From positions 1 through 64,000 of the forward strand of contig JAFAQY010000033.1 of NCBI GenBank assembly GCA_019261985.1: DNA of 64,000 nucleotides. Reading direction: 5' to 3'. This document shows, piece by piece, positions 808 to 60,831 of the stretch. A model generated the notes under the pieces. It had not been told where the DNA came from, searched no databases, and saw only the letters and a list, made by a program, of their open reading frames with translations. A program made the translations under genes and the position numbers. The first letter of the stretch is position 1; the number at the start of each line of letters is the position of its first letter. This stretch comes from Bryobacterales bacterium (lineage in GTDB: Bacteria > Acidobacteriota > Terriglobia > Bryobacterales > Bryobacteraceae).

Positions 808-913
808 GTGGGGCGGGTTGCCAACCCGCGCGCGATTGCCAATCGCGCTGGACGGTGGTAGAAAGAGCGCCAAGCGGGTTGGCAACCCGCTGCAGGATGG
901 CATCCTGCCCCAC
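808..913 (+). repeat. Multi-hairpin palindromic repeat, full-length copy A
   Basis: A 106-bp element with perfect 7-bp complementary ends, GTGGGGC and GCCCCAC. Inside are at least four hairpins with TTGCCAA, TTGGCAA or TGGCA centres (stems GCGGG/CCCGC, GCGCGA/TCGCGC, AGCGGG/CCCGCT, GCAGGA/TCCTGC). It fills most of the gap between folC and the P460 gene. It is the longest type-1 copy and defines the outer boundaries used for the other copies. Confidence 0.85.
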
Positions 914-942
914 AGGGTTTGGATGTCACGATAAGCAGGCCA

Positions 943-1527
943 CTACTCCTTAAAACCCGCCTTCAGAGTCCCCTTCGCGCGGGCAATCGGAAGCAGCGTG
1001 GGATAGAACTGCACGAACGTGTTTTCCACGGCCGTGTTCTTGCTGTGGCAAGCGTAGCAAGCCGCCGTCTTGGGCAGCACCGGCGTACTTTCCGCTTTGG
1101 TTCCGAATCCGAAATAGCCCCACTCGCCGTCCGGAAACCGCGCCCGGTCCTTCACGGCCGCCGCGAGTCCAATCAACTCCGATTGATAATGTCCCACGGA
1201 TCCGTTGTTGACGGTTCCGCTACTTGAACTCTTACGCTGTTCGAGCATAAACATGGTGTGATCCGGCCAGTGTCCCGTTTGCACAAATTCACGATAAGTC
1301 GTTGGTGTGACGAACACGTCGTCGAAGTTCTGCTCGCCGGGCGCGGCAGGCGTGCCATACGTCATCCCCAGGCCGGAGCTCAAGAAAATCCACTCCCGAT
1401 AATCCTTCGGCAGCACAAGCCGGTTATCCGCCGTGAACTGGGGCGGCGCCGGCGCAGGCGCCGGCTGGCTTCTTAAACCAACGCAGATTGCGAGCACAAC
1501 TACAAATGCACTCCACGATTTATTCAC
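943..1527 (-). CDS. Cytochrome P460 family protein, secreted
   Basis: A 194-residue exported c-type haem protein. I chose the GTG start at 1527 because GGAGGTGA sits just upstream and the GTG overlaps the upstream gene's TGA as GTGA; an ATG at 1542 would ignore this Shine-Dalgarno. An N-terminal hydrophobic signal (SAFVVVLAICVGL) precedes a Pro/Ala linker. The single haem-attachment motif CYACH is near the C-terminus, preceded by DGEWGYFGFGTKAES, the usual P460-domain layout. P460 proteins are periplasmic and some oxidise hydroxylamine or cytochrome partners; the substrate here is unknown. It is the last gene of an alaC-GNAT-P460 run. Confidence 0.85.
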   Translation of the reverse strand: MNKSWSAFVVVLAICVGLRSQPAPAPAPPQFTADNRLVLPKDYREWIFLSSGLGMTYGTPAAPGEQNFDDVFVTPTTYREFVQTGHWPDHTMFMLEQRKSSSSGTVNNGSVGHYQSELIGLAAAVKDRARFPDGEWGYFGFGTKAESTPVLPKTAACYACHSKNTAVENTFVQFYPTLLPIARAKGTLKAGFKE

Positions 1528-2492
1528 CGGGTCACCTCCCAAACGTAAGCCGAAAATTCCCGTCGCCGCCGGAAGCCCATGCTCTCATACACGCGCACCG
1601 CCGAGTTATTGGCGGTGGTCACGGTCAAGCTGACGTTCCGGCATCCGTGCGCGGCGAAAGCCGTAAGCGAGCGCCGCAAGAGTTCATATCCGATCCCTCG
1701 GCCCTTGTGGGACGGCCCCACGCAGATCTGCGTGATATGCCCGACCTCCGGCGCGACCAAGCTTCCCAGCGAAAGACCGCACATAGTGCGTTGGGCCCGG
1801 TCCCAAGCTACGAAGGAAGCCGGTGAGAAGAAAGCGCCGCAGCCCAGGTACTGAACGATGTTCACCAGAAACCGGTGCGCGCCCGCTTGCGACTGGTACT
1901 GATCGTTGATGCGGCTATCCACGTGACCCTTATAGCTGAGCGCGATTAGCCGCGCCGCTTCGTCGCGCCAATTCTCCGTCCAGGGCGCGAAAGCCACTCC
2001 TTGAGGATCGCGCGCGTGTAAAGATCGCACAGCCGGCAGTGGCAGATCGAGGAACAAGCGCGGAAACGCCTCGAACCAGCGTGCATACTTCGACGATGCA
2101 TCCGGGCCGTGGCGCAGCATCATTAACTGCGCTTCGATCCTGCGCAGTCCCGGAATCCGCCACATCGAATCCAGAATGGTTTCGAGCAACCGGAGCTCGG
2201 TGTAACGCGAGCGGAACGCCGAGCCAACGTAAAAATCCCCGATCAGCCCCTTGCCTTCCTCCACAACGTAATAGCTGTAGCCGGCCACGCCGCCGCCATT
2301 CACCACGGCGAATCCGTTCAGGGAACGAAGTTGCATGAAGCGGCGCACCAGATCGGCCGACGGGCGTAAATCCCAATCCAGTTCCTGCTGCCACGCCGTG
2401 CTCTCTTCTTCGAGCAGCGGATCCAGATGTCCGGATGCGAGCTCGTGGAGATCCACGATCAATTCCGCCGATCGATCTGACAGGGCGGCCAT
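1524..2492 (-). CDS. GNAT family N-acetyltransferase (two-lobed)
   Basis: A 322-residue protein, about twice a single GNAT domain. The C-terminal half carries the acetyl-CoA motif ICVGPSHKGRGIGYELL (about residues 256-272) followed by NNSAVRVYESMGF, the standard GNAT motifs A and B. The N-terminal half (SYYVVEEGKGLIGDFYVG) looks like a second, degenerate GNAT fold. It would transfer acetyl from acetyl-CoA to an amine; the substrate cannot be read from the sequence. It starts 12 bp after alaC ends and overlaps the P460 gene by 4 bp, so the three are probably co-transcribed. Confidence 0.85.
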   Translation of the reverse strand: MAALSDRSAELIVDLHELASGHLDPLLEEESTAWQQELDWDLRPSADLVRRFMQLRSLNGFAVVNGGGVAGYSYYVVEEGKGLIGDFYVGSAFRSRYTELRLLETILDSMWRIPGLRRIEAQLMMLRHGPDASSKYARWFEAFPRLFLDLPLPAVRSLHARDPQGVAFAPWTENWRDEAARLIALSYKGHVDSRINDQYQSQAGAHRFLVNIVQYLGCGAFFSPASFVAWDRAQRTMCGLSLGSLVAPEVGHITQICVGPSHKGRGIGYELLRRSLTAFAAHGCRNVSLTVTTANNSAVRVYESMGFRRRREFSAYVWEVTR

Positions 2493-2504
2493 GCTGAACA
2501 GTGC

Positions 2505-59332: not shown

Positions 59333-59485
59333 CTACTTGATTTCCTTGTGCGGGTGGTGCTTACGGCAGAAGGGGCAGAACTTTTTGAGTTCCAGCCGCT
59401 CCGTCGTGGTCTTCTTATTCTTCATGCTGCTGTAGTTCTTCCGCTTGCACTCGGTGCACTGCAAGGTGATTTGTTCCCGTGCCAT
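59333..59485 (-). CDS. rpmG: 50S ribosomal protein L33
   Basis: 50 residues: [20 protein letters not shown], then [20 protein letters not shown] and [10 protein letters not shown]. It has the four-Cys zinc form (CTEC and CPFC), so a zinc-binding (C+) paralogue. It is located between tuf and the vapBC module. Confidence 0.95.
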
Positions 59486-59509
59486 TTTTCAGACTCCTTT
59501 TCTGAGGGG

Positions 59510-60697
59510 CTACTCCAAAATCTCGTCTACGGTTCCCGCGCCGACCGTGCGTCCACCCTCGCGGATGGCGAACCGTAAGCCTTTATCCATCGCGACCGGC
59601 GTTATCAGCTCCACGTTCAGCGTCACGTTGTCGCCCGGCATCACCATCTCCATGCCTTCCGGAAGAGTGGCCACGCCCGTCACGTCCGTCGTGCGGAAGT
59701 AGAACTGCGGCCGATAACCCTTGAAAAACGGCGTGTGCCGCCCGCCTTCGTCTTTCGACAATACGTACACCGCGCCCTTGAACTTCTTGTGCGGCGTGAT
59801 CGAACCAGGCTTCGCGATCACCTGGCCGCGCTCCACGTCGTCCTTTTCAACACCGCGCAGCAGCAGGCCGACGTTGTCTCCCGCCTGGACCTGATCAAGC
59901 AGCTTCTTGAACATCTCGGTGCCAGTCACCACCGTCTTGCGCGTATCACGGAAGCCGACAATCTCCATTTCCTCGCCGACCTTGCACACACCCTTCTCGA
60001 CGCGGCCCGTTACCACCGTCCCGCGGCCCTGAATCGAGAAAATATCTTCGATCGGCATCAGGAACGGCTTGTCTATCTCGCGAGCCGGCTGCGGAATGTA
60101 TTTGTCGACCGCATCCATCAGCTCGTCTACGGTCTTTTCCCATTGCGGCTCGCCGTTCAGGGCCCCCAAAGCGCTGACCTTCACCACCGGCAGATCGTTC
60201 CCCGGGAAACCGTAGCTGGTCAGCAGCTCGCGAACTTCGAGCTCCACCAGCTCGAGCAGCTCAGGATCGTCCACCGCATCCACCTTGTTCAGCGCGACCA
60301 CGATGTACGGCACGCCCACCTGGCGGGCCAGCAGAATGTGCTCGCGGGTCTGCGGCATGGGGCCGTCGGTGGCCGCGACCACCAGAATCGCGCCGTCCAT
60401 TTGCGCCGCGCCCGTGATCATGTTCTTGATGTAGTCGGCGTGGCCCGGGCAATCCACGTGCGCGTAGTGCCGGTTGGCGGTCTCATACTCCACGTGCGCC
60501 ACCGCGATCGTGATACCGCGGGCTTTTTCTTCCGGAGCGTTGTCGATGGAATCGAAACTCCGGAACTTCACCTTGGGATTATGCTTGGCCAGCGTCTTGG
60601 TGATCGCCGCGGTCAAGGTGGTCTTGCCGTGGTCGATGTGGCCGATGGTCCCCACGTTCACGTGCGGTTTGCTGCGATCGAATTTTTCCTTTGCCAT
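59510..60697 (-). CDS. tuf: Elongation factor Tu
   Basis: 395 residues. G1 [14 protein letters not shown], effector region [18 protein letters not shown]3 [21 protein letters not shown]4 NKVDAVDD, and C-terminal [16 protein letters not shown]. It delivers aminoacyl-tRNA to the ribosome. AAGGAG precedes its ATG and a type-2 repeat fills the gap to fusA. Confidence 0.98.
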
Positions 60698-60719
60698 TGT
60701 TCTCTCCTTAGCGTGTCAG

Positions 60720-60831
60720 GTGGAGCAGGCTTCAGCCTGCAACCGGGGCTTCAGCCCCGGTCAGCATACCGGGATTAAACTCCCGGTCGTCCGGGACTAA
60801 AGTCCCGGTTGCAAGCTAAAGCTTGCTCCAC
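60720..60831 (+). repeat. Multi-hairpin palindromic repeat O, type 2, fusA-tuf junction
   Basis: 112 bp with complementary ends GTGGAGC/GCTCCAC and five hairpins: CAGGCTTCAGCCTG, CCGGGGCTTCAGCCCCGG, ACCGGGATTAAACTCCCGGT, CCGGGACTAAAGTCCCGG and CAAGCTAAAGCTTG. It ends 4 bp before the fusA stop. Confidence 0.87.

Follow-up and report, generated by a model that had tools for sequence, protein, structure and literature searches.

What are the palindromic elements that recur along a 64,000-nucleotide stretch of the genome of a Bryobacterales bacterium (assembly GCA_019261985.1, contig JAFAQY010000033.1, positions 1 to 64,000; hereafter the window), and what has spread them? A preliminary description of the window listed about 15 copies, called A to O, and compared them to repetitive extragenic palindromes (REPs) or miniature inverted-repeat transposable elements (MITEs). 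The analysis presented here suggests, with a probability of about 0.85, that they are non-autonomous mobile elements of the REP/REPIN type (REPINs being inverted REP doublets), spread by cognate REP-associated tyrosine transposases (RAYTs), which are Y1 HUH transposases. This reading draws on the anatomy of the elements, the pairing of each element class with its own RAYT, the restriction of the layout to one clade of RAYTs, and the presence of elements at sites that are empty in relatives.

The repeated module is a half-unit which, read from its foot, consists of GTGG, one base, a first hairpin (H1, 7-bp stem starting GC), a gap, and a second hairpin (H2, 8-bp stem). H1 and H2 are separated by 0 or 2 bases, and the half-unit is 39-43 nucleotides long, within the 20-50-nucleotide range of REPs, yet it contains two palindromes rather than one. 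Three classes of half-unit are present in the genome, here named A, B and C, and all three carry the foot GTGG at the 5' side of the hairpin: class A begins GTGGG, has no gap, and has loops like TT-gcc-AA; class B begins GTGGA, has an AA gap, and has CT-nn-AG loops; and class C begins GTGGG, has no gap, and has CT-nn-AG loops. A scan for foot, H1 and H2 listed 70 half-units in the window and the retrieved RAYT loci, a few of them without H2. Half-units occur singly or as inverted pairs, and a full element comprises two inward-facing halves with the feet at the outer ends, about 87-122 nucleotides in all. There are 33 distinct full elements (inverted pairs with a short spacer), together with many single halves; the inverted pair is probably the mobile unit, and single halves are probably its remnants.

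The genome, a 6.49-Mb draft in 138 contigs, contains five matches to the Pfam family Y1_Tnp, the fifth of which is weak (23.3 bits) and has an internal stop. The four intact RAYTs (P0001-P0004) are 178-195 amino acids long, possess the motifs NHVH, FWQ and YI..NP, and all pass the Pfam cut-off; their best NCBIfam family is the REP-associated tyrosine transposase NF047646 (68.8, 79.9, 76.7 and 88.7 bits). They do not match the IS200/IS605-type TnpA, which has the motif Y...Q, as NF033573 scores 21.9-30.4 bits against a cut-off of 55 and their own motif is YI..NP. A profile of 47 RAYT relatives has Escherichia coli TnpAREP (4ER8) as its top match (5.2e-15), and so does the predicted fold of one relative, L082 (mean predicted local distance difference test score 88.4). 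The preliminary description had envisaged a RAYT beside a copy, and three are found, each between elements of its own class: P0002 is bracketed on both sides by inverted class A halves, P0001 by class B halves, and P0003 by class C halves, each gene overlapping at its end with the downstream half. P0004 is flanked by single hairpins, GTAGGACAAGCT-nn-AGCTTGTCC, of a canonical GTAG REP family that, with at most 2 mismatches allowed, has 155 forward and 152 reverse genome matches, some of them at one place on both strands, and 0 in a reversed control. This single-hairpin family has no match in the 64-kilobase (kb) window; it occurs in the rest of this genome, at L001 and elsewhere.

In the proposed mechanism, each class would be served by the RAYT whose gene its own inverted halves enclose. 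This enzyme would attach to the element as a folded single strand, recognising the loop ends and the guide tetranucleotide, which is GTGG here and GTAG in some relatives, and would then cut and rejoin the strand, whereby copies would spread into intergenic DNA. For one RAYT, a GTGG guide is reported to have led to cutting at CC, and by that rule the cut here is predicted to fall next to CC. Full copies, with their short complementary ends and fixed size, might also resemble MITEs of an ordinary DDE transposase, GTGGRGC being the terminal inverted repeat (TIR). However, a target duplication of 3-9 bp accompanies 0 of the 33 full elements, with 2-bp matches not above permutation, and these ends are found on either side of Y1 transposase genes (no search was made for DDE transposases that carry them). 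The MITE half of the earlier comparison was rejected on the missing duplications and is very improbable, whereas the REP half stands.

Among relatives, the best 80 of 332 RAYT loci in named genomes were retrieved, the nearest of which belong to Bryobacterales and Solibacter metagenome-assembled genomes (MAGs). Of 121 genomes in the family, 87 contain RAYT matches and 40 contain matches to the class A model under stricter filters; a RAYT is found in 38 of the 40 genomes with elements versus 49 of the 81 without (Fisher 3e-5; the counts behind this test, and behind the binomial test and genome-wide estimate below, were read off listings by hand). The double-hairpin layout recurs at the RAYT loci of relatives with different stems and loops and a GTGG or GTAG foot. 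With five near-duplicate loci removed, a scan of the flanks of 109 RAYT loci found 73 double-hairpin elements, which occupy 48 loci and flank the gene on both sides in 25 of them, while shuffled flanks score 0 up to the 99th percentile. The feet of these elements are GTGG in 57 and GTAG in 16, the scan having required GT[AG]G. A quick tree of 101 RAYTs, made with the same five loci left out, contains a clade of 45 (Shimodaira-Hasegawa-like approximate likelihood ratio test 99) in which 42 loci have the double hairpin; 3 of the 56 loci outside it pass the same rule. The clade loci without a call are L069, where the downstream flank is cut short, and L144 and L154, where hairpins are present and the GTRG foot was not found. 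P0004 falls outside the clade, which so far has been found mainly in Acidobacteriota. Separately, unusually long inverted repeats flank the RAYT in a Pyrinomonadaceae MAG (L104, score 66) and an Obscuribacterales MAG (L098, score 52), and those of L098 contain two similar tandem hairpins.

Within the window, the 15 named places were checked with two covariance models, those of classes A and B (E <= 0.1), and 14 have a match, the exception being the degenerate copy N, which is identified chiefly by an outer flank. A repeat search also groups the listed copies, which can be seen in the raw sequence, and the window contains 25 perfect hairpins (stem of at least 8, loop of 2-8) versus 6, 8 and 6 in three mononucleotide shuffles. 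Both inverted halves are matched in copies A, D, G, H and O, and the others, apart perhaps from C, are single halves. The copies are as follows.

Copy A: 808..913, halves 808-848 (+) and 873-913 (-); full class A element, intergenic, model match.
Copy B: 3706..3745 (+); weak, decayed class A half (22.2 bits, E 0.036).
Copy C: 4979..5019 (-); class A half, model match; perhaps a decayed pair, as a partner seen by eye, without a model match, may begin at 4931.
Copy D: 10958..11044, halves 10958-10994 (+) and 11006-11044 (-); full class C element, model matches.
Copy E: 18293..18331 (-); class C half within an outer inverted repeat that includes 18337-18357.
Copy F: 21841..21883 (-); class A half in the nuoL/nuoM gap, model match.
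Copy G: 27937..28025, halves 27937-27977 (+) and 27985-28025 (-); full class B element in the nuoF/nuoG gap, model match.
Copy H: 29338..29425, halves 29338-29378 (+) and 29385-29425 (-); full class B element in the nuoE/nuoF gap, model match.
Copy I: 34446..34486 (-); hybrid half with a class A H1 and a class C-like H2, model matches.
Copy J: 42424..42464 (-); class A half with H1 GCAGGCT, model match.
Copy K: 43224..43276 (-); class C half with enlarged H1, outer flank at 43282-43302.
Copy L: 46815..46856 (-); class A half, class A model match.
Copy M: 48970..49011 (-); class A half inside an open reading frame kept by a rough gene caller, without a Pfam match.
Copy N: 56955..57008; degenerate, outer flank 56987-57007 kept, hairpins without a model match.
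Copy O: 60720..60831, halves 60720-60760 (+) and 60791-60831 (-); full class B element in the fusA/tuf gap, with an extra hairpin in the spacer.

The observation in the preliminary description is partly confirmed and its interpretation partly supported. The 7-bp complementary ends that it ascribed to full copies are present in A, G, H and O, whereas those of D (GTGGCGG / GCCCCAC) pair over GTGG only. The ends of one copy are complementary because they are inverted copies of one half-unit, and the two end types, GTGGGGC and GTGGAGC, which had been taken for covariation, reflect one difference that sets apart two families, each with its own transposase; the idea that the ends covary recurrently was therefore rejected. 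A REPIN doublet is expected to fold into one long hairpin, and DNA folds of five copies vary: O forms one long hairpin, A is mixed, D forms separate hairpins, and in G and H the foot and H1 of both halves pair as a long stem with the two H2 hairpins on top. The hybrid structure of copy I suggests that hairpins may be exchanged between families.

Copy K belongs to a variant about 11 nucleotides longer, the extra length in this copy being an enlarged H1 that repeats part of itself, and about 20 of the 149 class C model matches listed are of this longer kind. Several single class C halves are enclosed by an outer inverted repeat, ATTGCAGAA...TTCTGCAAT, at the three places in the window noted under E, K and N and genome-wide; its left arm, TTGCAGAAGTTGGCGTACAGC, has 27 genome matches (up to 3 mismatches) versus 1 in a reversed control, and the repeat may constitute a separate composite element. 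The window also contains a tandem array of a 7/14-nucleotide unit, CAGTTGT(CAGTTTT), at 47850-47957 (7-8 copies of 14 nucleotides) and, more weakly, at 62932-62967.

Copies are not confined to the window. The exact pattern of foot and H1 has 87 genome matches and 0 in a reversed control. The covariance models were built from 19 class A, 23 class B and 14 class C halves: the listed halves (26, 25 and 16) were reduced to 23, 23 and 14 aligned rows by dropping near-copies, odd lengths and one hybrid, four class A halves whose H2 loop is longer were removed, and some class B rows were shortened by 1-2 nucleotides. Genome matches number at least 150 for class A, at least 149 for class B and at least 149 for class C, each search having scored 150 candidates, and there are also matches in relatives. 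Density was measured in the window and 19 stretches picked irrespective of matches (331,894 bases), the density and pairing sets being limited to the first matches, 88 for class A and 50 for class B/C. Above the score cuts this sample holds 47 half-units (33 A, 8 B and 6 C), with 17 in the window versus 30 in 268 kb elsewhere, or about 1 per 3.8 kb versus about 1 per 9 kb, a roughly twofold difference (binomial 0.005, though the window was chosen for these copies). The earlier figure of one copy per 4 kb consequently holds for the window and was rejected as a genome-wide figure, since 17 of the 47 sampled half-units come from the window; extrapolation from the 30 outside it gives about 730 per genome. 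Outside called genes lie 41 of the 47, versus 11.2% of random positions (simple codon-usage gene caller), and 26 of the 47 lie outside genes and are flanked by co-directional called genes.

Several operon sites occupied here are empty in relatives. The nuoF-nuoG and nuoE-nuoF gaps are 105 and 105 nucleotides here versus 3 and 3 in the nearest relative, whose NuoF is 91% identical. The element is present at the nuoE-nuoF site in 0 of the 29 best relatives examined, and at the nuoF-nuoG site in 0 of the 27 that are readable among these 29; some relatives have other long spacers at the nuo sites (L199, L202 and L224). The fusA-tuf gap is 137 nucleotides here versus 17-37 in seven genus relatives, which lack copy O, and the distance from the nuoL stop to conserved nuoM is 101 nucleotides longer here than in three of three relatives, where copy F is missing. 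The straightforward interpretation is that this lineage gained the elements, probably through a RAYT, since the alternative, their loss from all the relatives, would take many events.

The same copies could instead be structured RNA elements (attenuators, mRNA stabilisers or terminators), with hairpins kept by selection at the transcript level. In the nuo and fusA-tuf operons, the genes on either side of copies F, G, H and O run in the same direction, so that these copies are probably transcribed, and the 26 half-units between co-directional genes point the same way. However, Rfam at the gathering score matches just a tRNA in the window, the examined relatives lack the element at the same operon sites, and every class is tied to its own transposase. 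The stems, moreover, show no excess of G-T pairs. Mismatched cells in classes A, B and C comprise 4, 3 and 4 G-T and 6, 0 and 4 A-C (totals of 11 versus 10, which are small numbers), and strong pairing without a G-T excess suggests that the constraint acts on DNA and not on RNA. An RNA element was rejected as the primary identity because the stems lack a G-T excess, Rfam gives no match to the copies, and the relatives' sites are empty, and it is improbable; later use of the elements in RNA is possible.

The internal stem covariation reported in the preliminary description exceeds independence. Watson-Crick cells constitute 98.0, 98.5 and 94.7% in classes A, B and C, versus 78.0, 83.2 and 84.3% expected with independent arms, and shuffled and slid controls agree with real stem covariation; the class C set (22 rows) includes a few class B-like or misaligned halves (L015, L016 and L172). 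Part of the signal has another source. Among full class A elements, the H2 stems of the two halves are identical in 0 of 21 and share 4.29 of 8 positions versus 5.74 when permuted (0 of 5000 as low), suggesting that a substantial part of the stem signal in class A consists of left and right haplotypes; the H1 stems of class A halves are slightly less alike than permuted pairs (5.67 versus 5.93 of 7). In full class B/C elements, H2 stems are identical in 0 of 9, with no departure from chance. Pairs with unusual arm lengths (3 of 24 and 1 of 10) were left out of these permutations, and the element at window position 10958 is in both lists.

Selection for structure, as proposed earlier, is a fair inference, but arm copying in a palindrome would also give paired changes. 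Such copying from arm to arm within hairpins by template switching, with no selection for structure, would explain the paired changes only. It would leave few intermediates, and the numbers of double-changed Watson-Crick cells (143, 43 and 18 in classes A, B and C) do exceed those of mismatched cells (17, 6 and 15). These counts include inherited changes repeatedly and, in class A, partly reflect the two haplotypes. Arm copying alone also does not predict that loop-end pairs are nearly invariant within each class, or that H1 and H2 agree across the clade (below), and it is an unlikely, though not negligible, source of the pairing.

Across the clade, H1 and H2 share the two bases that immediately precede the loop at 29 of 42 loci versus 9.8 when permuted (0 of 4000 reach this value), whereas agreement of the first five stem bases is at chance (82 versus 80.0); the three loci outside the clade were left out. 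When RAYTs were thinned to below 65, 60 and 55% identity (n = 23, 13 and 7), the two-base agreement was reached by 1, 6 and 100 of 4000 permutations, with 13 of 23 versus 7.0 expected and 8 of 13 versus 4.2 expected in the first two sets. Two group 3 TnpAREP are reported to accept no mutation at certain loop positions (PMC8266576), making loop-end recognition a plausible cause of the agreement; one enzyme may read both hairpins. We tentatively propose, at somewhat less than an even chance, that this Acidobacteriota RAYT clade evolved a bipartite REP with tandem hairpins, in which both loop ends would be read by the same transposase (perhaps by two subunits) and would coevolve, leaving the stems to drift as self-complementary spacers, and in which class A would always join two unlike H2s, giving distinct left and right ends.

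Several points weigh against a RAYT-mobilised REP. The empty sites reveal gain or loss and not the causal agent. Canonical REPs have one hairpin and these have two, hybrids of two classes occur (copy I), and the enclosure of class C halves within an outer inverted repeat means that another mobiliser is possible for those. Three of the four RAYTs score below the NF047646 cut-off of 80 and one passes. The test of co-occurrence of RAYTs and elements is uncorrected for kinship, and two genomes (G048 and G059) have model matches without a RAYT match. The loop-end agreement has limits of its own: loop length and the closing base match less clearly in the thinned sets, at n = 7 the stem control also increases (57 of 4000), and tests on independent pairs have just 1-2 pairs on starred branches.

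The REP/REPIN reading nonetheless places the elements beside well-described systems. They share with the REP, bacterial interspersed mosaic element (BIME) and REPIN systems of E. coli and Pseudomonas fluorescens SBW25 (PMC3116915, PMC8266576) a GTRG guide 5' of the hairpin, high copy number, intergenic location, inverted doublets and singlets, a Y1 HUH transposase between copies, and compensatory changes; in P. fluorescens, each of three RAYTs has its own REPIN class, made up of inverted REP doublets, next to it (PMC3116915). The differences are that each half here has two tandem hairpins, where the known systems have one, and that three families are tied to a RAYT clade found mainly in Acidobacteriota. 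TIR-flanked acidobacterial Y1 transposases (TIRYT) with 'double palindromic' TIRs have been described, as have, in Pseudomonas putida and P. fluorescens, hundreds of degenerate GTAG-1 units that are each attached to a second stem-loop (PMC3733652). Both resemble the present elements, in the inverted repeats that flank acidobacterial Y1 transposases and in the joined second stem-loop respectively. In the hybrids, however, the second stem-loop is described as unrelated, whereas here both hairpins form one unit with loop ends tending to match; the present element may equal a TIR listed there. The 'double foot' subclass 2.4 of TnpA-Y1 shares the ends GT[AG]G ... C[TC]AC, although there a single REP sequence is described as carrying both feet, one at either end, and class 3 comprises high-copy structures in another acidobacterium, Solibacter usitatus (about 600 copies), with foot CnGA and motifs W[TA] and YV[VI].EQ, unlike the GTGG foot and the FWQ and YI..NP motifs here (PMC6006769). 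A literature search, largely without subscription papers, figures and supplements, found no published description of a tandem double-hairpin REP and, beyond PMC6006769, no RAYTs reported with Solibacter or Bryobacter. The earlier statement that no named family matches therefore holds for the double-hairpin layout as far as these searches went, whereas the kind, REP/RAYT, is known; the novelty appears to lie in a REP that has two hairpins in tandem and is linked to a single RAYT clade.

The way in which REPs spread is poorly understood (PMC8266576). The copies in the nuo and fusA-tuf operons, missing in the examined relatives, represent such elements settling within operons of core genes, and the four RAYTs of this one genome, three with double hairpins and one with a single hairpin, constitute a natural swap set for the recognition of hairpin, loop bases and foot by class.

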